A stretch of 64,000 nt of DNA, taken from the NCBI GenBank assembly GCA_037389465.1, contig JAZARR010000069.1, positions 1,545,501 to 1,609,500 on the forward strand, given 5' to 3'. The notes under the pieces are model-generated. The model made no database searches. It was not told the DNA's origin and saw only the letters and a list, made by a program, of their open reading frames with translations. Below, one piece after another: positions 5,001 to 64,000 of the stretch (positions are counted from its first letter, which is position 1; every line of letters begins with the position of its first letter). The translations under genes were made by a program, and so were the position numbers. Source of the DNA: Baylisascaris procyonis (lineage: Eukaryota > Nematoda > Chromadorea > Rhabditida > Ascarididae).

Positions 5001-5963
5001 GATATGGAATGCTTTATGCAATATGCAATTTTCGACAAAGGTCGTTGCAATGCACGGAAGAGACGGCAGATCTCAGATGGGGTTGGCGTGTGAGCTCAAC
5101 GGCAAATGCGGCATTGATCTCTTGGGAACAAAAAAGTGCTGCTTTCAAACACTACGCCCGTGACCGATGCATTTGTGGTCAACGCACAAATTGTCCAACA
5201 AAAATTCTTTTCATTCTTTGTAGAGATAGATGACTTTTGAGAGTCAATCCACTTGCCTATTTGCTAATTAAACGTTGACATTTCATGACATTGCATCTCT
5301 CTTATAGGCATATTCAGTGGCAAGTTGATTAAGCGACTTGAAATGAAGCCACAAAAAATGTTTCCATTATCAAGCTTTGCTTATTTGCTTATGTTGAAAA
5401 AACTGTCAGCAACCATTTCAGCCTATTCAGTTGTCAATAACTGATTTAGAGGTAATCTTAAGAAAAGAATTCAGGTCCATATAGTTAATTTGTTCGAACT
5501 TTTTCGTGCATAAAAGTATTCAAAAATGTGCCTCGTGTATTTGCTGAAACTCTCACGATATCAAACACTGCTGCCTTAAAGTTCATTTACATAATGTTTG
5601 GCAGAATGAACGCTCGTTGCGAGGTATTTAACGCCTACAACACCTATAGTGGACATTGAATCGTTACTGGCACAGCAATTGCCACTTACCATGTCGACTG
5701 TAGATGAAAGCACTTATGCCGTTTCCAATAAGGCCACAAAAACCGATAAGAGGAAGCATGAAACCGATAAGGAAAAGATTGAATATATTGTAGGTTGAAT
5801 CCGAAGCGAACATTTGGCACATTCCGCAATGCGGAAGACAATTCGAGAAGTTGGGCCACGAGATGATGTGATAAGAGAAGAGCATTTGTACCTTAGCGAA
5901 CGTCTCGTTCGAATGGGGGCACATTGCCGGCAATACCGGCTCGGCCACCTCATATTCGTCCAT
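2074..5963 (-). CDS. FMRFamide-type neuropeptide GPCR, 5' part (exons 1-2)
   Basis: Rhodopsin-family receptor predicted to bind an amidated neuropeptide at the plasma membrane. Exon 1 is 5963-5690 and exon 2 is 2300-2074, with a 3.4 kb intron between them. The donor (CATG|gtaagt) and acceptor (caattcag|AG) keep the frame (phase 1). The 167 residues give an extracellular N-terminus with two sequons (N19-E-T, N38-F-S), TM1 with the GN signature (GLIGNG, N81), then MRSSTNLYL and TM2 with its Asp (LGCSD, D108), and TM3 with MTAQTCSVYF. The MRSS.N / AQT.S.Y pattern matches the FMRFamide receptor family. The end of TM3 reads ADCFVQ, so the DRY arginine is missing. The start is the ATG at 5963, 13 bases after a tttcag; a short upstream ATG frame overlaps it. 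Exon 2 ends in phase 0. TM4-TM7 were not found in 1-2073. The family is fairly sure; the exact ortholog is not known. Confidence 0.8.
2301..5689 (-). other. Intron 1 of the GPCR gene
   Basis: A 3.4 kb intron with canonical gt...ag borders between TM1 and TM2. It contains AT-rich sequence, a perfect 16-base palindrome built on TGCATATGCA near 4390, and a short G-run near 4461-4486. The plus-strand open frames at 4052-4375 and 4865-5233 show no recognisable domain, and I treat them as chance. Confidence 0.6.
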
Positions 5964-5978
5964 CACTCATCGGCCTGA
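5964..5978 (-). promoter_or_regulatory. Possible trans-splice acceptor before the GPCR start
   Basis: On the minus strand the sequence gtatttcag ends a few bases before the ATG of the receptor. Such a site directly in front of a start codon is typical of nematode spliced-leader addition, but it could also be the acceptor of a cis-spliced 5' UTR intron. An out-of-frame ATG (6 codons) lies between the site and the chosen start and overlaps it. Confidence 0.4.
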
Positions 5979-36045: not shown

Positions 36046-36076
36046 CCCCAATTTTTAGGGGGGAGTGGAATTGCTG
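36046..36076 (+). promoter_or_regulatory. Possible spliced-leader acceptor and 5' leader of the TRABID-like gene
   Basis: The sequence ttccccaatttttag ends at 36058, eighteen bases before the ATG at 36077. A pyrimidine-AG site so close to the start codon is what nematode spliced-leader trans-splicing uses. An upstream 5' UTR intron would look the same. Confidence 0.5.
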
Positions 36077-37648
36077 ATGACATCGGAAGAAGAAAGGAAA
36101 TGGAGCTGCCAACAGTGCACATACGCCAACTATGCGTCGGCTACTGTTTGCACAATGTGTCGTACACCTCGTCATACCGTTTTCATAACCGAACCGCCTG
36201 GTACGTCGAATGCGACTTGTGCTTCGGTCGATCCAAACACATCTAGATGGCCATGTCCAAGTTGCACGTTTATGAACGTTCTCCAGGCTGGCTATTGCAG
36301 CATTTGTTTGACTAAAAGACCTCAAGCATACGAAACCGAATTACGCCAACTTACAAAAGGTACGAAAATTTTATTTGCAGTTTCTTTTTCTTTTTCTTCC
36401 TTTTGCTTCTTGTAAATTCAGTTCTTAAACTTATAATGGAACAGTGTTTTTGTAAGGTAAATAGACTATATCCCGAAGGACGATGCTCATAGAGCCGAAA
36501 GCGTCGGCAATCTCAGGGCGGAAACATTCTTCACTGTAGCGTTTCGTGCCTCAAGCCCTTTTTATGTGTTGGTCACTATATCCTTCTCACATTTCCCCGA
36601 TGCTCCCTGTTATGTACCTGAGATACAGGCAAGTCGTTTTCCTCCATCTCCGTTCGAAATTTACAAAATTGGCTAAATGCTGAGTAGAATCTACCCTACC
36701 TCTCTCAATCACTAACTGTTATCGATCGGAATTGTTGCCGAAGCATAAGCTTATCAAGGTGAAAACTTCTTATTGCAGCGGGTGAATCAGAAGTGGTTGA
36801 TATGGAGCACATTGATAAGATGAATAAAGCACTGCGCAAATGGTCGTGCACTCAATGCACTTACAAAAACTGGCCCACCGTTAAAATGTGCACGATGTGC
36901 CGAGCATTGAGGACGAACAGACATGACCAGCCCAGCGACGATACTTCTGGTAAGTTAGTTGTGCTTATTATATACCGCAATGCTATTTTAAGCCGCATTT
37001 CGCATTACGGATCCTTAATTTGGTAGCAGTAAATATTAGCTATGCACTCGGTTCCCTCCCTTCACCCCCCCCCTCCCCCCGTCTCCTCGCTTGCTCATGT
37101 TAGTCTCAGAAATCAAGCTTTTTTTTGAAGCAAAAACTTTAAAATGCTGGATATAAATTTTGGAAAGTTTGGAGTGCGCATTTAGATGAGCATAAGAGGA
37201 GAAGGATGGGGAATAAAATAGGCAGTAAATGATAAATATGGGTGGAGATCTTACATCTATCTACAATGATGACTCTTCACGATCGTAATTTTTTCGGCAC
37301 CAGAGATCTAAGCGAATAAGTGCACTAGCTGTGTGGAGATGAATAAACAACAAATATGATCTCGTACAGGTGGTTTACAACTGGTAGTATCAAATACCTA
37401 AGTAAACAAGGCAGTTGTCATGAAGTCCGAACGATGGCTTCATGAAAGCAAGTACAGAACCAAGCGAACAGCTTATTTAAAAAGAAAGATTACTTGCAAT
37501 GTAACAGTAATATGATATTAGTGAGGTTATTGGTACGAATGATATTAAAGCAAATGGAACTTTATGGATAAGACAGGCAAAATACTTTTTGATAGTAAGA
37601 GGTAGGTGCGACTTTAGCAGTCGCAGTAAAAACAGTAATAATAATAAT

Positions 37649-37698
<50 letters not shown>

Positions 37699-40600
37699 TT
37701 AATGCGTCTGAAACGTTCCGTCATGAGCCACCTAAATTTGCGCATTTCCTAATCTCTTCAGTTAGTCACACCTTTTAATGCTTATTTCTTATTCCACGCT
37801 TTGGAAATTCCACTTCAAAAATCGTTCTATTTTCTTGCTACGCACAATGATGGGAAGCTATTTAAAACAAGATACACATCATATGGAGTCAATGAAATGC
37901 CTCTGTTGCGTTGAAGTAGGTTTCTATGGAGACCACTCCGCTGATTGCAGTGATTGTGATTGCGGTTAGATTAGTATATGGGCCAGCATTGGGAATATTA
38001 CGGAGGACAAAGCCATATGCCTTCTGCTAGTCATAGCTGTTATTGACTCTTTAGATCATAAAATAGAATAAATTTAGTGTAGAAGATTGCTTTTTTTTTT
38101 CTGGGAATCATAGCAAGCTGTGATGAAACATAATAAAGTGATATTTGTCTATAAAAGAGTCGAGCTGCAATAAGTTTGGGAAACTCTATCCTCCCGCCTT
38201 GATCCTTATTCCCGAACAGTTTACGACCACAAAAGAAACTTAAACATGAAAAGTAGCAATGCAGCTATCAGTGCATATTTGGATTATAAGGTGTGATATA
38301 CTTTTGTATTTCAATATTAAAAATTAGCTAATAGCTACGAATTTGTTAAAAGTGCGACACATGTAGGCTAAGCGCTTCTCAGCTGACGTTTTTATGCGCA
38401 AAAGAGAGCAGTGATTTTTCGAGAAATACTCGAGACTGTATTCGAATTTTGGGACAGGAATAAGCCCATTCGATCAATGCCCTCAAAAGGGAAGCTTTTA
38501 TTTTGTGCCATCCGAAGCTCATCTCCGAAGTTACAGAAGAATGGTGAAGTCATTCAATCATCAGGAAATGCAGCGTATGGGATTACAGATGGAAATCCGG
38601 AAGTTGAAGAAAATCTGATATTCTGAAAAAGCATAGGTAACCGTTGAAACCTTGAAAAGGACAAGGCCAAATAAAATCCACCATTTTATGCGAATCCCAT
38701 CACCCCACTCACAAACAAACTAACGAAGGAAGTATGTGAGGGTGGACGAATTAAATATCAGTGCGCAATAATTTTGGAGTGTTTGTTTAGTCAGCAGATC
38801 ATTAGGCTCGTCACTTTTGAAGGAACATAGGGAGATGCATATGTGATTATTTACTAGTTGAAGTACGTTTTTAGTTCTTAGTTTCCTGAGTTCTTAGTTC
38901 TTATGAATCTAGTCATTGAGCGAATTGCTACAGAGAGTACAAATTCGCTGTCAGACATAGTTGGTCGCTTCCATCTCCTCTCCTTTCGCCTACGAAGGAA
39001 AAGTAGAGCCTTAGTTATGTATAGGTTTGTAATCGTTGACCAAAATTTTCTTCAAGTAGTTGTTTTCAGTTAAACCCCAATCGAATATGTAAATGCAATC
39101 TCGCAACTCAAAAATGTTTTTTCTTGTTTCTTTTATTTTAGTTTTTTGTTTTGTTTTTTGGATTCCGATTTCGAAATTTCCCAAATTCTTTCTTCACAAC
39201 TCAAAATTTTCGAAATGAAAAAATACTTTTGAAAATTACTCCGAAAATATAAATGTATCGTATTTTTACTTCTTTTTTACACGTTGAAACCGAAGCGGGA
39301 TGCGTTGTTTGCGCATATACTGATGAAGAGTCGTGCAATGTTTTCTCATGCTAGGCGGAATTGCAGTCGTTAGATAAATATTCTCGGCACTGCTGTGAAA
39401 AAATTGCCGTTTAAAAATTTATAGCTTGAGTTTATTATTTCGGCACATTTTATGCGAGTGCTGTCCGCTTTCTTTTAGGGACAGCATGTGGTTGGAGTGG
39501 TTCGCCTGGAGCGAACAATGCCGATAATGTGGGTATGCGTCCTCTGTCGAGAGTTGATTCACATCTATCGGAGAAGATTGCCCCCTGGCAAAGTAGCGAG
39601 AGTGGTGGGCATGTTTGCTCTGTTATCTTTTCTCTAAGTATTTTGTGCTCCTTTAAGAGTTTACTATGTTGCTGCTTTCAAGAACTAATTGTTAGTTTAT
39701 AAGAGCAGTACTATTCAAGACGATTGCTACGATGAGAGTAGTGTTAGTTTTTGAGTTCGATGCTTCATGCAGCAGTTGCATCGTTGCGTTTCTGTGGTCA
39801 TCATCAGCGTTTATGTGAAAGTAGAGTTGCGATGAAACGGATATCTTTTGCTCTTCGTAGAGAGGGATCGCAACTTCCGATCGTTTTTGTATCCGCCTAA
39901 GACGGCCTTCATAGCAGACAGTGTGTTCTCATTCTAAAGAAGTATTTATTATTTGTTGAAGTGGAAATTGTAGGAGGAGGTGGTCGCATAAGCACAGATG
40001 GGATATTCCAAGTGCGCAGTGGAACGGAATCTCCTTTAATGACAGCCAAAACGATGGTGCCTTCGGATGAGAACGTTTCGCTTCTTGAGCGATACATTCT
40101 TCATCTTCAACAGAGTGTTAGTCTTATGTTATTCATCTCATATTAGACGAGTTAGATGAGTCCTCATTAAAAGCGCTAGAAGAATTCGGTGTTGAAGAGT
40201 TGACAATACCTAATAAATGATCCGTCATGTTCTGCTTGAGTGCTTGTACCATTAGTTTCAATGTTAAAAGATGTTTGAATGGATATGATTTCAACGTGAA
40301 AACATGCGCGTCATAACTTTCGCTATTGTGACTTTGCATTGTTGCAATCATTTTCATTCTTTATGGGAGAGAAAATAAAAAATATCGTTGAGCAAGCGAA
40401 AAACATTCTTCGAATATTACTTTCTAGCGATATTACAGTTGTTTCAAAATTTTAGAGTGCTATAAAAGTTGGAACAAAAAATTTCTGTATTTTGATTTTC
40501 CTCACATTTCTTAGAGGTAGTGCAGATTGTTAGTGTGAGTCGAACATTTGCAGGTGGTCGATAGCGTGACTGAGTCGCTAACGCGCATGATCAGCAGGAA

Positions 40601-43600
40601 TCGATGTTCTGTTTGCTTTACAATTAGGTATTTGGCATAGGGGACGGCAAAGAGTGGAGAGGGACCACTGTTGCGCGGCACTGATCATCGGTTTGTATAA
40701 TTCCGTTGGTAGGTATTGATTCAGGTGGCAGTGAGTGGTGGTGAGCGGTCCTTTGATGAAAAGCGACCGTAAAACATCCCCTGAATGGATTTCACCTCTC
40801 CCGCAGTGCTATTTGTGTCAAAGTAGGCTGAGAGTAATTATTAGTGAAGAAGCGTTTAGGCAGACACGGGTTGTTGCGCATTCCTGCAAGTAGTCGCCGA
40901 AGTGATGCGTGCTGACAGTAGCGGTGAAGATAAGGCGCTTCAGTACATATATCAATATGGAGAGGGTAACCGGAAGATCACGTCTTTCGAGGTATGTCTT
41001 CAAAAGTTTCGATGGAGTTTAAACTTTGCTGCGATATTATTAGTCATTTTCTTTTTTAACAGAATTCATGTATCAACATTTTGTTTAATATATAGGTATA
41101 GCATTGAATGTTGGAATATACAGCACGTCGAAGAAATATTGCTTCTCCATCTCGATATGGGGAATTGATGATTTTTGCCGTATTCGATTTTGCTTTTAGA
41201 CATCGAGCTGTTTCATTTCTTAGCGTGAAGTAGTTAAGATTATTTTGTTCTGAGGGTTTTTGAAGGAAGAAGTGTTTTTAATCAATCAAATTTGACGTGT
41301 TCTTTTCTAGACAATATAAATATGGGCACTTGATGCTGATCGGCAAACCAATTATTGTAAGAATGGGAGGGTGATTGGTTGTATGGCTGGGTCGGTGGGT
41401 GAACACGGGTTATGTGGGGGCGAAAACGATCCCGAGGGCATCCAATCTTCGGGAGCTTCTGAAAGGAGGGCACTTTAGCGAGGTTTAAAATAGTAGAATG
41501 TGGCCACCGGGCTTCAAGAATTTCAAAGGGGAGAGGTACGGTCGGGTCCTCTAAAGTTGGGTTTTGCCGCCCGTGGTGGAGAATCTTCACCTTGTTTATC
41601 TGCAGTTCCTACCCTACCCAATTAAGCAAATCTCAAAAACTTAAAAGCCAAAATTAGGTACTTGCAATCGTTCTTTGCAAGCTTACGTTGAATTGAAGGG
41701 TGCTTTGCTGAACGGGTTGGACGATAACGGTGAGCAGTGCCTTTACAATCACACATTGCTGGAATTGTTACGTGAGCGTCACCGTGACTTGGTCTCTACA
41801 CTTCCCAGATTCTTCACCGACTCTATCTGCGTTGACGTCGACTTCCCCGGGCTCGGTTGGAGCTTTTTTATTTTGCTGCTTTTCGCGACCATTTTCACAG
41901 ACCTTTGCAATGATCACAGTGGTATGTGAATGCCAAGATTCGGTCCATGATGTAAGATCACTTTTGAATGAGAAGTGAAGACGAGGTGGAATTTTCTCAA
42001 GAGAAATGACTTGTGGCCAAAGAGGTGTCTGTTGATTTCCTTCGACCCAGTGAGCCGTCGGTTGTGGCGATTCTTCTAGCTAGTTTGTCTGTCGAATGAG
42101 CACTACTACAACGTCATTTATGCAAGCGACTTATCGTCCTCCTCCTTCCGCTGTAACCAATCTTGTGCATTATGGCGCTTTTTGTAATTAATATTTTCTT
42201 CGATGCTTATTACATCTAACATACTGAAAATGTAATATTTCATCACAGGTGTGTGTAATTTTGAACGATTGAGGCATAGAGGGCATAAATAATATGCGAC
42301 TTTTGTATCCTGCCTGTTGAAAACCACTGAGAGCATCTATTATTTGGTAAATCCGCATCATGCACAGAGTACACGATAGTCCATTTTTTCTGGCCACTTC
42401 ACTAGCCCTTGTTGCAGTTGAGAATTAGGCAGACTTTTTCATATTTACGTGAGGGTTTTTCAGCAACCCTGATATGAAAAGAAAAATAAGATCGATGAAT
42501 GGTGCCAGCACGGAGGAAACAATGCTCTATAAAAGGCGTATGTACACTGTGTAACCTCTATGACGTTAGTGAACAGTGGAAAATCCGTGAGCGTTGCGCT
42601 GTTAGTGGATGCAGTAATAACGATACCAACGGCTGTTTTCGTTAGAAGATCATTTATCAGCAATCCCCGTGCACTGTTTGAGAACATCATAGCTTCCATG
42701 AAAGTTCAAAAATCCATTCAGTGACCCCATTTCCGATCTATTCCGTTTGCTGATGCAAAGATGTAGGAAAACGTTTTTAGATTTCAATTTTGTTGATGTT
42801 TTATTGCAGAGACGCTTATTGAAGTTTTTCCTTTCTTCATTTAGAGAGTGTTGCTTTCTTTGCAGTCAACACTGAAACTTCGGCAAATATATATAAGAGC
42901 CTTCGCTCGAAAATACGAGATGACTTCGATATGCGGCGTATAGCGAACGTGGGTGAACATTTCACTCTTCCAATTGGTATAGTTCTTTCGATATATCGTT
43001 TATTTTATCTATTTTTTAGCACATGTGGCACACTAAATGTGCCGTCGCTATTCGTTGCACTGACGAGTTTCTCTCACCGAGTCCGTGTCTTGCGTAATTC
43101 TTACCTAAATTTAAGCAGACGAGTTGAGGATTTCGGTGTTACCTTGTATGCGCTTGCTGGTTGTTGTTTCTCTGCGTTGTTTTTAGCGTGTATGCATCCA
43201 GATCTCCTAGTGGTTCTGTCTGCTAGTCGTAAAATTTCTGTGTGATCCATCTACAACGAGTGCTTTAAAGGTAATTAGGAATTCGATGCAAACAAGAGCC
43301 ATCTTCTTTAACACTATCAACATACTAAGTGGAATATTGTAGTGGAGCTGAAGGGTGTAATTCAGCACACAAGCATGTGCAAATTTGAGTATACTCATTT
43401 TGATTTCAACAGAGTAAGCATCACTTTGAACTCACTCCTAATGATTGGGGGAGGGGGGGTGGGAGGAAAGGAGTTGAGAGGAGGGAAAAGAGGGATGCAC
43501 GACATCTACGGTCACCTTCATCCCGCTTCTCCTCCTCCTTCCCCTCTCCTCCTCGTTTATGTTCCTGCAATCGACAGCTGCGAGCAACCAGGGGTCTACG

Positions 43601-46600
43601 ACCATCGATTCACATCAACCTTTCAATTTTAGCGGTCACGTCTGTCACTGATTCGCTTTATATTTGTGTACTTGTTTTTGGCACTATTCAACTTTGCGAA
43701 TATTTCCCACATGCAAAAGTGATCCGACAGTATATACAACGATTCAAAACGTGCATAATGCTATCGTGTGTCTGCCTTGAAATTAGAGTCCATTGATCTA
43801 TCAGTCATTTTGTTTTTCGAGTATCAAACAATGCTTAGAATCAGTTCACATACACGAACACTGTAGGTACCGGCGGCATGCATATGAACGCTATAGGTGC
43901 TTGATAATAGGCATGTTCAGATAAATAGGAATGCTCACAAAAAGGACACATTCGTAGCTGAGCCGTCGTTTCCACCCATCCTCGTGGCTCATTGCATTTT
44001 TAGGGTAACACGTAAGTGAATATCTCTAAAAGGATGAGTTCTTTGCAGATGTGTATAATATGAAGCCATGGCTAGCAGGGGGAGAGGCCGATCTTCGTGT
44101 CTTCATGGATTTTGACGAACGACGTATGCTTTAAGCGTATTTATAAGCGTAAACTTTTTAAATCACTGCGCTTTCCAATCTTCTTAGTAGTACAGGCGTA
44201 TCTTTCATCATTAAGCACTAAGTGAAAGGCGATTTGATTTTCACTGAGTGATCCTTACAACACAGTGTGCATTGACTAACGATCTAGAAGTTTGTCCATG
44301 CTGCTGCCATAATGAATCCACGGGGCTCATATATTCTAAAAGTTGTGCTTGAGGCTGCAGAAAAGTGGAGCCGATATCAAGCAGAACAGGATGATTATGT
44401 GAAAGTTCCACTGCATGCTGCAATTTTTCTATTTTCGGGCATAGTTATTCCAGCTCATTGTTCCAGCAAACATCGGCTTTAGCTGACCAAAAATGTTATT
44501 CCGACAGCATGTAGTTCACATGCTAGCTTTCCAGTAGTTTCATGTGGAGTGTTAGAGCTTCATGAACTGATGAAATTGAGAAAGCTTATTTATTTATTTA
44601 TTTATTTATTTTGAAGAAATCTTGAAGACGATTTGCTTTGGCGACACGCTCAATATGGATAGCCTTCTTGGCCGTAACCTCTACGCGCCTATTCTTCTTC
44701 GCAACCGCGGTGGAGGCCACAGCCTTGTCGATGCAGTCTCACAGGTTGGACTTTGTATAACTCACTAGAATTGTATAGTGTGCAAGGAAATTGCGAGCAG
44801 AATCTCCATCCCTCATTTTCTGAAATTATTGCCTCATCGAAGGCTACTGTAATCTTTTGCTCCGAAAATCCCCGTTGCTAGTTTTTTTAATGCTGTATAG
44901 TTGTGGAAGGAACCTAGACACTGCGGCCGAGAACTATATCGTCTTTCTGTCTTTTTTTTTGCGAACTTAGCACCTTGATTTTCCCATCTGCTCCCTCTTC
45001 CTTCCTCCTCCCATCTCCAGCGCTGTTTCTCATAATCTTTGCCCGGGCAAAAAATTCCGTTCTTTGTAGGATACTACAGCCTATAGCTTCTCCCTGTCTG
45101 TTCTCCGTATTTTCCTGTTTTAACCATTTCTCCAGCGGGTGACTTCTCGATTTCACTTTCTACGAATTAGGATAAGTCCTGTCACGATTAACTTAAGGTA
45201 GATTGCCTCGCTCTAATGGCATCGAACGATGCGTTGTTATATTGGAGTAGATAGCGCGTAATCGTTTTTGCATGAAAAGGAGGTGCATAGGCGCTAACAA
45301 TAAGAGGTGCTAGATGTGGTGACTTTTTAAATGTTTATTTTCATTTGAAAGTATCCACGGTAAATTGATCCAAGCGGAGAAGAAATGAGTGATTAACTAA
45401 CGTTGGCCAATGTATGATAGCTTACAATATTCTCATACTGTTCTGATCGTAATGCTATTCGATAGTTCTGCAGGCAATGTGGGGTGTGCTGGACAAGAAC
45501 AATCTCTTGCGTGGAGCAATCTATCAAACGCTGTATATGAAGGAAGCAATGTATGTCTTGTATTTATTACTTCCTCGTAAGACATCGAGATTACCTTGCA
45601 GTTGTAAGTTTTGTGAGGTTTTAAGGGGAGGAGGTTCTATTCGAAAACGTGAGGTAATTATAAATGCGGGATTAATTTTCTTCGCAAGATTTTGATAGGC
45701 TACAGTGTGAATATGTATGTATAGAAGTAAGTCATTTCTTGTCTGGCGTGATAAGGGGGTGATAGGTTTATCGAGGCGACGATTTTTCCCCAATGTTGTA
45801 AGGAGACGATCGGCTAGTAGTTTACGGTACTTTTTTGATTTTACTGTCCGCAAACTCTCCGTTTCGAAGCGATCTTTCAAGGATGTCGGACGTAAAGGCG
45901 CTTGCTTAAAAACTACTGCTATAATCAGCTACGATTCAAAATTTTTGCTGCTAGAGCAACGACTAGCGAGTCGCCGAATTTATCTCACTGTACGGAACGG
46001 ATTAGGAACGAGGCATATTCGTATATGATTTTTGAAAAGTAAGCGGCCGAATTTTGAGATGGAGTTAAGCTGTAGTAAAGCTTGAACGTTGGTATGTCTT
46101 CTAGATTTTTGAGACTCTTAGGTGGCATTTTCTTGGACTATGCAAAAGCAGACTGTTTCCACTCGACACATTCGACTTGTTTCGTTGTTCATTCCAAATG
46201 ATCAGCATCGCATCCTTCAAGTGCATTCGTTTGCACGGGAATTGAGATTTAATAGTTCCCTTAACCGGGGTCTTATTGAAAAAGCAAGATATCTTAAGTT
46301 TGCATACTTAGTCGTATTTCTTTGAACAGAGTTTGGAAGGTAAGTTTGCTCAGGTTTTTAGGAAACGCTGAGAGTGAGGCTATTTTATGGATTTTTTAAG
46401 GAAGCAGTTTGATAGACTTGCTTTAGTTGTTAGAAAGTCACTATGTTCAGTTGATTTACTAGTTTTCTATGTTACATACGACGAGATGGTTATCTCTAGC
46501 GTTTGAGGTAATGCAGCATTACGATGTTATTGCATGAATGCGATCATGGCGGAACGAGGTGAACAACGAGAATTGAGTGCAACCAACGGCAGCAGCTTGT

Positions 46601-49600
46601 CCAAATAATTTGTGCTGCCGATAAAATGCTTACAGGGGTTTTCTGAAAATCGGGGGAAAGGTGGGGACACAGAACTTTTGTTTAAATCTCCGCGCTTTGT
46701 GTTCACGCCCGCTTACTTTCATTTTTTATTCGGTGCTTGCCTCGTTGCTGAAATTTCATGCAAATATGCTTTGAATTAAGCGATATTTTAGAAAAAACAT
46801 CGAGTCGATAAGACGCCAATCATCGTTTTATCTCTGCTCCATAAAATCGTTACCATTATTTACTATCAAAAAGAACGATAAACCCTTCAACTAATGCAGT
46901 GTAACATTACCGCATTCCGTTTGATTGTGAGGAACAAATATGATTCGGTGTTGCACTTGAAGCTCTGAATTTATCCATTTCAGTGGAACGGATATATTCG
47001 GCGAGGATTTCTCTATCTATGAGTTATTTGTGGCTGAATGACGATCGTTGTGCGCTATTGACTATTTCTAGGTGAATTGATAGAATCAGCAGGGTATCGG
47101 AGCAGCTGAATATATTATGTTTCCAGAGATATGCAGTAATCTGCTTTCTTCGGCGACTAGCTTGACGCGTAAGGAAAAGACGCAGTAATCGCCGGTACTA
47201 ATTAAGAAGCGCCTCAAATTTTTGTAGGTTTCGAAGTCGTTGGGCGACATCACTGTTGAAAATGGATATGAAGTTTGATGTTTGGGTGATGCAGCGTTAT
47301 TGGGCAAATATAATGGATTGCCATGAACCGGGAACTCCTCTTGAACAGGTCTTTTGCTCGCTTTCTCCGTTTTTTTTTTTTTTTTTTGCGACTTCACTAG
47401 CCCCACTGTGGTCGTTTAAACATTGGCCTTGCCTCTTCCCCCACCTCCACATTTTTCTGCTGTTATGAAACATTGTTTTTGGTCTTCCACAATAGCCGGG
47501 GTTGAGCTCGAAAATTATCGGAGGTCGTCGAACAAGAGCTTTGATCCGAAAATTGTTGTTGTTCTCGGCATACGAATTCGGAGCCTTCTAGTTTTCAGAA
47601 ACCCTGCGAAAAAGTGAAGATCGAACTTGTTTTCAAGGCATCCTAAGTGCTAAAAACTACAAGAGAAATGAATGAGTTAAAAGTTCATACCGGGCAGATT
47701 AACCTCACTTCGTGAACATTATGAAGAACGTTCGTCTTCCAGATTCATGTTCTGGTGCTGGCGCAAGTACTGAATCGTCCAATTATAGTGATGCCAGTCG
47801 AGTCAGCCAAACTGGCATCATACATGACGCGAGCACCGCTAAGATCTGTGAAGCATCCCATGGAGGGTTTCTACCCACAATTACCTGCTGTTAACAGCTA
47901 TCGTTGCTGTGCACCACTCTTTTTGGCCTTCTCCAATGGGAATTTCTACGCGATGATACTGCCTCCGCCTTCAACCAGTCCAGCGCTGAGTAAATAATTT
48001 TCTCTGACTTTCTGAGGTTTCATCTGTTTTGCTCAGTGACTTGTTAATTGCTTTAGATGAGATAGCTTGGATGTAATTTGGTAATGTAATTGTAATTTTG
48101 TTGATTTTAACTGCGCTTTCGACCATATTATTAGAAATATTTGCGAACAGCAGTGCTGTATTGCTTGATTGTGGTTAAATGTCATCTGAATGGTTGGCAT
48201 CAAGTTATTTTGCACTTCACTTATCATTAAAAACATTATGCAGTATCATTGCAGCATGAACTTCACTTATCTTAAGTACCTTACTTTATTTACTCATTCG
48301 ATGAGTTCATTTTGAATCGGTCAGCGCATTCTTATATAAGTCGCCTAGTTGTAAATTGTTTCTTCATCGTTAATTCGATCGATTTTCTTTAGTGGAACCT
48401 TACAGCCAGTTCAGTTGGGAAATACGCTGATTGAATTAGATGCAGTGCTTACTGAGCAAGAAAGAATAAAGCTCTATGTATGTATCCTACTTTGATATGT
48501 GTTGTTTATTAATAATCGTATTTATGATTGTATTTGTTGCCTATAACGCAGGGCCTGCTAGATGATTGAACCTGATCGTTAAAACAGCTCTAAAGTGTTT
48601 TGAAGGTCTATTGTAAGCAGTGTTAAGGTTCTATGGATACGGAGTGCCCACCAGCGACACAAATTTATCGTCATGCTCGCTGCCCTCCGATCGAGTTGGC
48701 TCATTACGTGCAGTTTGCGCTGGATGGAGATGAAGCGGACAGGATGGTTAGAGAGAGTATGATGTTCGACATCGATGAACATGGCACGCGCTGGTTTTAT
48801 CATTCTATGTGCACCATTCCACACACAGCCTCCGATCAGAGCTTTCTTCTATGGAGTAAGTTCATCTTGAAGTGTTGTTTCAAATCGTTGTAATAATCCA
48901 ACTTTATAGGGTACAAATGCCGCAGATGTTGGGATTGCTTGGCGAGTTTTTGTTCGCACACTTTTTAAACTTTTATATGATTTCTTAAGTCCATCACCGT
49001 CACTTTTCTGCATGAACCTTCTGAGGACAAGTTATGCATATTTAAATTTCTTTGTTTAATTACGTGAGATGAGGATGGGAAACGCTTAGTTACAGGTTGA
49101 GAGATTGATATTTTTTTCACTTGTTCCTTGCATTCAGTACGAAGCGAACTCATATGTACTGCCATCTGTCCTCCATTGCGCTTTTGATCTTTAGCTGAGG
49201 TTGCGAGCTTATAGGTTCAAGTGGTTGCGAGCATCGTTTTCGAAGTAAATTGATAATTGCACGTTTCAAAGACACGTGATACTTGCGGATGATATATTGA
49301 TCAAGCAGCTAGATATGCTGTTCAGCAGCTAGCCTCATAAGTGAAGTTTTTTTCTTCTTTTTAGGAGCGTAGTCCTAAGTTTGTCCACTTCTTTCGCTTG
49401 AAGAAAGAATCTCACCTTTCTTCGTAAAATTGACGCGAGTAAGGGTGTTCCGGTGCTTTTAAGGTATGCAACATCAGCGCCGAACATGAGTGGCAGCTCT
49501 AAAAATCAGGCAAAAATACGGGGCTGGTGGGATATTTTCTAGCACTAGTTGATTGCTAAAAATACCTAAAATCTCTGGGCAAATGAAGAGGAGGAGGCAG

Positions 49601-52169: not shown

Positions 52170-53566
52170 CAATATCGACGGCATTAGGCACTCATGCTAT
52201 TATGTTGTTGTTGCTATAAATGGTCATAGTCCCTAACCTCGTTTTGTTCACTCGTTATTAATGGGACTAAGAAGAGTGATTTTGCGACGGAGATTAGCAA
52301 TTCTCATCAACAGTGTGGGTCAATTGCTTATCCTTCTTAAGTTGGGAATCTAAACTCAATCTGTTTTTATGGTCACAATGATAGCTGCGTTTTTGTTTAT
52401 TGATGACGTTCACTCACTGCGTCCTATCGTTTAATTATTCACCTTGCCTAATCATCGAGGAGGACGTTTTAACTGCTAACGAGAATGTGATTTTGTTCTC
52501 TCTTTCCTCTCCCCCCTCTCGCCTGCTAAAAAGCGGCAATTCTTGAATCTTGCTGAATTAGCTTCTTCCGTTCTTCTCCAAATTTTTTCGTCCGTCGCAA
52601 ACACCTTCCGTTCCCACCTTGTTCAGTGCCCTCTTCTATGTGTTCCTTTCCCTTTCTCCTGATGATTCTATGTTTTTGTTGTATTCTTCGGGATTTATGT
52701 TTAACCTAGTTCTTTCTGGAATTGTGTTTTGCTTCCTTTCATATAACGTTATGTGCATTTCATTTGCGTTCACTAACGTTTCAATAAGAAACGCTTTATT
52801 AAGAATGAAAAGTTGAACCAATTATAATTAGCCAGATGTATGAAAGCCGAGTTGAATTTCGGCCACTTTGAGAGAGGAGAGGAGGGGAGGGGAGGGGAAT
52901 GAGTGAGTCTTTAATTCCCCTCTCGATTTAGATAGGAATGTGATGAATGCTTCCTGTTGTTATTGAGTGCATGTATGATTTTGTAGAAAATTCAGAAAAA
53001 GTCTCTCTTCAGATGCACGATGGAAGAAAAGTTTGTGATCAACGTTTGAGGATGGAAGAAAAGATGTCGAATATCTAGTGTGCTTTATTCATTTTATTCC
53101 ATTGGTTGATTGGGCATTGCATAAGATCGTTATTTTTAAGGAATGGCATACGCTATTCGTGCGTGATCGTTGCCTTGTGAACGTTTTTTACCAAAGTCTT
53201 TCCAGTGTTGTCAACATACGGTGAACATGCTCTAGGAAAGCTGAATTTTATTGTATGTGGAAGTTGGTAATTGTCTTACGACAAGCTTTTTTTCAATTCG
53301 TGCACTATATGAAAATTCGATGTTTTAACGCATAAAATGTTTGCTTACTTTCGATGTGGTGTGGAGTTTCAATATTTAAGTCGTATAAAATTTTAAGTTT
53401 ATTAGTGGGTCGTCTAATCGCAGTAGAGATACCACTTGAGGTTGCGCTCTTCGCTTTTAATTGCTATTTTTTGATGTGCAGAAAATGCAGATGCCTATAC
53501 TAATTGCTGTGGAAAATGTTTACAACACTTATTCATTCACAGTGAACATATTGCGCTTTGCTGCGA
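52170..53566. other. 3' flank of the TRABID-like gene, no gene recognised
   Basis: It should contain the 3' UTR. I saw no AATAAA in the first few hundred bases after the stop at 52167-52169. A GA-rich tract lies at about 52876-52900. The hydrophobic plus-strand frame at 52619-52816 has no supporting splice sites. Confidence 0.5.
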
Positions 53567-59639: not shown

Positions 59640-60640
59640 ATCAATTACCGTTCCCACGACTGCTCCAGGTATACGGCCCGGGGAGCACCCAATGGATGAC
59701 CCTCGCTAACTGAACTCATCGAAGGTGACCCCCGCTAATCGACTCATTGAGGGTATCTTCCATTGAACCAATGCTGACGGCAGGAAAACCGGGTTCCTCA
59801 ATGAGTATAGCGGCCCAACACCGCCTTCCGTTAGGCTGTCCCGGAGACAACACTTCTTTTTCCGTTGCCTATTGACTTCCTAGCAGGTGGATTCCTGAAG
59901 GCCCAGCCTCCGATTGAGGGGAGGAGGCGCCACCTTCGTTCCGGCTAGGGACACCATGACCAGTTGGAGGGTCCCCTCCTCGCTCGCTCCCATCCTTTCC
60001 TCTCAGAGCAATTTGTGGCGGTTTGAGGTTTAAAGTATCGCCTTGGTTGAGGTGGCGGGTTAATTTAGCGCTTAAAATTGGGTAATTTAGACATCATGCT
60101 TCCAGATACACGCTGTGTGAATTCTCAAGGCAACGGTTTTTCCGAAGGCCAGAACCATCAAAATTTGGGAGGCTATCCTCGTTCAATCACGCTCTATGCT
60201 CGCTAAAAATCGACAACTGGAGCAAACAGTATAACACGTTAGGACTCCTACTATCCTTTTTCTGAGCCTCTAGGGCTCTTGATCTCACATTCGATGGCTG
60301 AGCCTTAATGCATAAACACGACGTATGAGCGCAGGCTTCTACCACGGTTATCGGAAACAGCATCACAGTGTCGACCCTCAACCGAACCATACTGACCTCT
60401 TTCAGTAGTCGAGTGACAGTTAGAGCAAACCAGTGCCTTCTTCTATTATGTTTCAATCAACTCAAAACTAGGAATCACCGTCTTCGAAGGCACATTGGAA
60501 ACCAAAAAAGATCGGTGGGCGAAGGTCAATTAGTGACCACAGCAGCAATTTCCCACTTGGCCCTTCCATCGATCGCCACATGCAGGCTGAATCCGTTGGA
60601 ACTGGGAAGGTGGCCCAAGTACATAGCGAGGTTATAAAAC
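59640..60640. repeat. GC-rich dispersed-repeat-like block
   Basis: About 1 kb with G+C far above the flanks and short open frames on both strands. A direct repeat of 'ccccgctaa..gactcat.gagggt' type occurs near 59700-59755. It resembles the 5' leader of a nematode non-LTR element. No reverse-transcriptase motif is present inside it, so the class remains a guess. Confidence 0.35.
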
Positions 60641-61312
60641 CATCACTTCGCCGATCATCTATAGTAACTCAATAAGTACGAGCAACTGCCTCAACTCTAT
60701 TCTATTGTTGGCACTTTCGACAAGTGTAATGCAGCTGAAAACTTTTTAAGTCAGATGGCCTTTTTAGTTCATCTTGTTGCCAGGCCAGTTAGTGAACTGA
60801 TGAAGCGTGTATGAATTTTTCAGCGCTTAGCTACAAAGTTTGATGGCGTCGTTGATAATGCATAATCACGAAGTTGTTAAGTTGTTAGATTACTTGAGCT
60901 GTTATGGTAATCTTGATTTGTGCAAAATTTTCACTCGTTTATTTATTAGAAGGAAAGAATGAAGGATAAGAGGATAGAGATAAAGGATGACTTTGTTTAG
61001 TTTACTACTCACCTGCTCGGCACGTTAATTTTCTCCTCGAACGTATTTCTGGAAAGCATCACAATACTCACCACTTGTCGGAGAGTCGAATTACCCCTCT
61101 GTTGGCATTCCGCATCCCCTACCAACTATCAAATGAAACCCTCAAGATGCTTCAGTCAGCCTCATGTATCCATCTTTTCCCCTTTTTAAACGGTTTTCGG
61201 CACAGTGCTCTTGCGCTCTCACCTTTACGACCCCCTTATTCATTCAAATGCCCTTAATTATCCAATTGCTCATTCAAATTATTTCAAACACCTAATGCCA
61301 CTTAAAAACAAC

Positions 61313-64000
<2,688 letters not shown>

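Follow-up and report, generated by a model that had tools for sequence, protein, structure and literature searches.

A TRABID-like gene of Baylisascaris procyonis in which Ser and Asn replace the catalytic Cys and His, predicted to encode a pseudo-deubiquitinase

Introduction

For human TRABID (ZRANB1), a catalytic triad of C443, H585 and D404 has been reported (PMC10723793). The C443S variant is described as not hydrolysing K29 or K63 di-ubiquitin (PMC10723793), and as co-precipitating polyubiquitin and forming ubiquitin-rich puncta that depend on NZF1 (PMC10723793, PMC4386031, PMC7948964). Dead TRABID is reportedly used to trap ubiquitinated targets in laboratory work (PMC7948964), and accounts of natural pseudo-OTUs are already in print (PMC4654579). 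Among the matches listed in the open-licence literature, a scope outside which most subscription journals lie, we found no report of a naturally dead TRABID. Here we describe a TRABID/ZRANB1-like gene of the nematode Baylisascaris procyonis, located within a stretch of 64,000 nucleotides (assembly GCA_037389465.1, contig JAZARR010000069.1, positions 1,545,501 to 1,609,500; hereafter the window, to which all coordinates refer). Its predicted product carries Ser and Asn where TRABID has the catalytic Cys and His, and it is probably a pseudo-deubiquitinase.

Results

Catalytic positions of the OTU domain

The Cys loop of the window protein reads NRGGGHSLVDAV, with Ser423 (codon AGC, 44721-44723, exon 9) at the position of the catalytic Cys443, and its His strand reads SNGNFYAM, with Asn563 (codon AAT, 47941-47943, exon 12) at the position of the catalytic His585. 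When aligned to the solved TRABID (3zrh), Cezanne (5lrw) and A20 (2vfj), the window protein each time has Ser opposite the catalytic Cys and Asn opposite the catalytic His. The residue preceding the catalytic Cys is His in the window protein, Asp in TRABID, and Asn in both Cezanne and A20. The third triad residue, Asp404, seems to be retained as Asp383, a match made by eye in a region where the HMMER alignment is of low confidence; the triad positions of TRABID are consequently occupied by Ser, Asn and probably Asp. Beyond residue 380, the model contains Cys at 394, 487, 551 and 552 and His at 422, 488, 498 and 534, the Cys closest to Ser423 being that at 394 and the His closest to Asn563 that at 534. 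Furthermore, R438 and A451, reported as the sites of two human patient changes in TRABID (PMC10723793), are still Arg and Ala in the alignment. As judged from its sequence, the window gene is TRABID-like and probably does not encode an active TRABID.

Family assignment and conservation of the OTU fold

The homology of the predicted protein to TRABID and the OTU family exceeds chance by sequence comparison. In phmmer searches, human TRABID was the top PDB match (3zrh; 68.4 bits, E 3.5e-18), with Cezanne at 51.1 bits and A20 at 40.2 bits; this comparison, made by scores only, took in the A20-type enzymes with solved structures, namely these three. Identities over the OTU core lie close together (57/157 or 36% for TRABID, 50/149 or 34% for Cezanne, 55/150 or 37% for A20), and we assigned the protein to TRABID because of the bit score together with the three NZF fingers. 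Among the A20-type enzymes compared, the OTU domain thus appears closest to that of TRABID.

The Pfam OTU family PF02338 was matched at residues 419-523 with 30.7 bits (cut-off 23.3). Of 43 columns that are invariant across TRABID, Cezanne and A20, a count drawn from the alignments of these enzymes only, 28 are kept in the window protein, while the 15 changed columns comprise both catalytic residues plus several mild swaps (L to I, Y to F). Since 15 of the 43 columns differ, the loss of Cys and His is unremarkable by column count, and its significance lies in their catalytic role. On this evidence, the OTU domain is conserved as a fold, yet diverged outside the active site too, and the predicted protein has the recognisable fold without the essential catalytic residues by which a pseudo-deubiquitinase is defined. 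For the ankyrin-like domain, the phmmer alignment to 3zrh starts at residue 292, within the domain and with low confidence, and the earlier part was placed by eye; a Pfam search of the model protein returned no ankyrin match.

NZF fingers and chain-contact residues

Three NZF stretches, corresponding to the three N-terminal fingers of TRABID, matched PF00641, which scored 46.9 bits over the full protein (cut-off 27). The four zinc cysteines are retained in all three fingers, and the solved TRABID NZF entries 5af6 and 4s1z match the window protein at finger 3. In NZF1 of TRABID, T14, Y15 and M26 are reported to hold the distal ubiquitin, whereas Y15, N17, W18, S20 and T25 hold the proximal ubiquitin (PMC4386031). 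We therefore scored each finger at positions 14, 15, 17, 18, 20, 25 and 26 in a gapless comparison with the human sequence. Finger 1 (T, Y, N, Y, S, T, M) and finger 3 (T, Y, N, W, T, T, M) each keep six of the seven contacts, and finger 2 (T, F, N, V, Q, S, I) keeps two. However, a score of 6/7 is only suggestive of specificity and does not prove it, because the same count for the human fingers gives nearby values for NZF2 (5/7) and NZF3 (4/7).

Gene model

In our model, the gene spans 36077-48569 (+), with 15 exons and 617 codons in consistent phase and a single terminal stop (Table 1). Each of the 14 introns is of the GT-AG type. The GC content is 0.48 in exons and 0.39 in introns. Frame 0 contains only the terminal stop, compared with 33 and 41 stops in the other frames and a mean of 32 in shuffled sequences; it should be noted that the open frame is not independent evidence, because the exons were picked for being open.

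The initial annotation of this stretch had already reported the exchange of the catalytic Cys for Ser and of the catalytic His for Asn, as well as the change from D to H before the Cys relative to human TRABID. The gene model and the three structure-based alignments confirmed the two exchanges, and the comparison with human TRABID bore out the third change. The same codons had been numbered Ser464 and Asn604; the codons stand, and in our model the residues are Ser423 and Asn563. The offset is a constant 41 at both residues, and the earlier model therefore has 41 extra upstream residues, which may or may not be part of the protein. Its 17 exons and approximately 712 codons were likewise not reproduced. 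Its span 44617-47989 holds exons 9 to 12 of our model, in phase, the three NZF fingers are borne out by PF00641, and the TRABID-like architecture with an open frame finds support in the best PDB match (TRABID) and in the Pfam NZF and OTU matches.

Two observations concern the flanks of the gene. Upstream, AATTTTTAG at 36050-36058 (+) is separated from the start codon by 18 bases, the spacing expected of a spliced-leader trans-splice acceptor, which it may represent. Together with the splice sites of the gene, this possible acceptor has a nematode-like appearance. Directly after the predicted stop, an open stretch at 48627-48893 (+) contains MDTECPPATQIYRHARCPPIELAHYVQFALDGDEADRM and gave no match in Pfam and PDB searches; it probably belongs to a neighbouring gene or else, as a 3' exon, would extend the TRABID-like protein.

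Table 1. Features of the TRABID-like gene in the window, with the basis on which each was placed
Feature	Position	Strand	Basis and remarks
Possible 3' splice (or trans-splice) acceptor AATTTTTAG	36050..36058	+	putative role; 18 bases to start codon
Exon 1: start codon, NZF fingers 1 and 2	36077..36359	+	PF00641
Exon 2: NZF finger 3	36779..36949	+	matches human TRABID NZF structures 5af6 and 4s1z; below Pfam cut-off alone
Exon 3: linker	39479..39604	+	GT-AG, phase-consistent; without homology
Exon 4: linker, ankyrin-like region begins	39974..40114	+	placed by eye
Exon 5: ankyrin-like region	40894..40991	+	by eye against human sequence
Exon 6: ankyrin-like region	41699..41855	+	later part aligns with 3zrh; acceptor and donor weak, selection guided partly by phase and length
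Exon 7: ankyrin-OTU connection, FTLP motif	42866..42976	+	gene model and alignment to 3zrh
Exon 8: helix carrying Asp383 (GAT 44108-44110), which probably corresponds to TRABID Asp404	44049..44123	+	residue match by eye
Exon 9: Cys loop, Ser423 (AGC 44721-44723) for catalytic Cys443	44617..44744	+	alignments
Exon 10: OTU helix AMWGVLDKNNLLRGAIYQTLY	45474..45550	+	gene model and alignment
Exon 11: OTU core, PGTPLEQ at end	47228..47348	+	gene model and alignment
Exon 12: OTU core and His strand, Asn563 (AAT 47941-47943) for catalytic His585	47743..47989	+	alignments
Exon 13: 16-base microexon	48057..48072	+	predicted from phase alone
Exon 14: GTLQPVQLGNTLIELDAVLTEQERIKLY, C-terminal OTU strands	48393..48477	+	resembles human C-terminus
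Exon 15: GLLDD and stop, last exon	48552..48569	+	predicted

Alternative exons, second copies and relatives

Pattern scans of the whole 64 kb window on both strands for alternatives to the Cys and His loops gave four Cys-loop-like matches, at 53266 (+), 27359 (-), 61611 (+) and 10049 (-), and none of the His type; none of the four lies inside the gene. The most promising of them by appearance, NRWAGHC at 61611, was rejected as an OTU Cys loop: it lies 13 kb downstream, a stop follows 13 residues past the Cys, and no OTU-like sequence surrounds it. In a tblastn search of 60501-64000 with the model, only two matches appeared (E 0.17 and 2.2), neither of them at 61611. Because of the early stop, the missing OTU neighbours and the lack of a tblastn match, we took NRWAGHC to be a chance occurrence. 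A looser G-x-C scan of introns 8 and 9 returned four matches, all in intron 9 and none leading into OTU-like sequence, one of which arises by read-through of the exon 9 donor; introns 11, 12 and 13, scanned with a looser His pattern, contained none.

When the model was searched against the window with tblastn, no second TRABID-like copy was found there. The search recovered 13 of the 15 exons of the gene itself (exons 13 and 15 are very short), four cross-matches among the NZF fingers, and six weak matches (E 0.57 to 6.2) that were taken as chance. For relatives, there were one and seven pattern matches in viral and prokaryotic contig collections, respectively, none of which was confirmed by tblastn, and little was expected there.

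Other features of the window

The window gave no match in either an Rfam or a tRNA scan. On the reverse strand, a hydrophobic stretch at 5667-5966 contains LIGFMLPLIGFCGLIGNGISAFIY and resembles helix 1 of peptide-type GPCRs; searched alone, it had no Pfam match. A frame at 63094-63189 (-), which surfaced as a chance tblastn match of the TRABID-like model, resembles the C-terminus of AGC-type kinases, among them LATS/Warts.

Discussion

The analysis shows which residues are lost and which are kept, that the frame is open and that the sequence matches an OTU fold. The account that we consider probable is that the gene encodes a TRABID-type pseudo-deubiquitinase with a dead OTU domain, which binds ubiquitin chains and shields or clusters them. 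The OTU domain would no longer be able to cleave ubiquitin, and the NZF fingers and the ankyrin-like ubiquitin-binding region would hold K29/K33-type (or related) chains on target proteins. Ubiquitin or partner proteins may furthermore still dock on the dead OTU fold, and chains would be shielded or clustered rather than removed. We infer the inactivity, the chain preference, the shielding role and the use of the gene at all. The window protein naturally carries the C443S-type change, plus the loss of the His, and by analogy may behave like the laboratory C443S TRABID. A pseudo-deubiquitinase that possibly still reads chains had been proposed in the initial annotation, and the catalytic losses, the three fingers and the OTU fold are consistent with it. 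That annotation had also named an alternative exon restoring Cys and His as a possible refutation, and no such exon was found in introns 8, 9 and 11 to 13 or in the scans of the window. Double loss together with kept chain-contact residues makes this a clean case, still of one gene in one genome. More tentatively, and with considerable doubt on our part, an animal lineage might have converted TRABID from an eraser of K29/K33 chains to a dedicated reader or protector, two fingers keeping the chain contacts; if true, this lineage would run atypical ubiquitin signalling without this eraser.

Several points weigh against the pseudo-deubiquitinase reading. The C-terminus of human TRABID is about 55 residues longer than that of the window protein, the PF02338 match stops at residue 523, short of the His strand, and finger 3 alone scores 18.1 bits, under the Pfam cut-off of 27. 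Two chain contacts are changed, by W18Y in finger 1 and S20T in finger 3; W18A in human NZF1 is reported to have abolished K33 diubiquitin binding in pull-downs, and human NZF2 and NZF3 are described as having no such linkage preference (PMC4386031). Moreover, Ser alone is no proof of inactivity, because the activity of Drosophila Otu, with Ser at the catalytic Cys position, is disputed: it was inactive in PMC4654579 and active in a Ub-Rhodamine assay in PMC12263153. An intact TRABID paralogue could also exist elsewhere in the genome. It could do the enzymatic work there, the window copy being a diverged duplicate that acts as a competitor or is decaying. We regard this as unlikely, though it deserves attention: Ser-type OTU copies that followed duplication are described for the fly OTUD4 family (PMC4654579), and further invariant positions are altered in the window protein (15/43), whereas no second copy lies within the 64 kb, a result with weak bearing on the rest of the genome.

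That the enzyme remains active, using Ser as its nucleophile and a changed general base, strikes us as very improbable. The reported deubiquitinase activity of Drosophila Otu (PMC12263153) and of USP53 and USP54, which are annotated as pseudoenzymes (PMC12037411), would favour it, as would the apparent retention of Asp383. However, the His has gone too, unlike in Drosophila Otu and CG3251, both of which were inactive in one report (PMC4654579), human C443S left K29 and K63 di-ubiquitin unhydrolysed (PMC10723793), and the nearest alternative Cys and His are at 394 and 534. It is only slightly less improbable that the gene, although intact in appearance, is a young pseudogene or an unexpressed relic. 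This would fit the two catalytic losses, the weak splice acceptors of exons 6 and 9, the placement of exon 13 by phase alone, and the differing exon numbers of the two gene models. Against it, the exons that align with 3zrh contain no internal stop or frameshift, the zinc cysteines are kept in every finger and the OTU core is conserved; the open frame points the same way, though weakly, since it was partly chosen in modelling. The argument of the initial annotation that two losses speak against a young pseudogene proved weak, because a second loss is no longer selected against once the first has occurred. Finally, a single genome is the source of the sequence, and assembly or base-calling errors at both catalytic codons would have to be assumed in two exons 3.2 kb apart, each with adjacent changes (GDC to GHS, RGHFSA to NGNFYA). 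As these neighbouring changes in both loops fit divergence and do not fit a single error, we consider such an artifact barely credible.

Comparison with known OTU proteins

Human FAM105A, which is not known to have NZF fingers, belongs to another family. It shares with the window protein an OTU fold without an intact catalytic triad, as described in PMC4654579. The same source reports a natural change from Cys to Ser in the OTU domain of the Drosophila OTUD4-family proteins CG3251 and Otu; these differ from the window protein in belonging to another OTU subfamily and in keeping Asp and His (PMC4654579). C. elegans RIC-7 is likewise a worm protein with an OTU-like domain, which is reported to be largely dispensable for its known role; by contrast, it is Otulin-like by predicted structure, and the part of the source available mentions no NZF or ankyrin region (PMC10369933). 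With TRABID/ZRANB1 itself (human; CG9448/Trabid in Drosophila), the window gene shares three N-terminal NZF fingers, the A20-type OTU domain and possibly the ankyrin-like region, and it differs in having Ser and Asn for Cys443 and His585 and in an OTU core that is 36% identical. A natural dead TRABID would show what the laboratory trap does in an animal, and it would allow what TRABID does by binding to be told apart from what it does by cutting.

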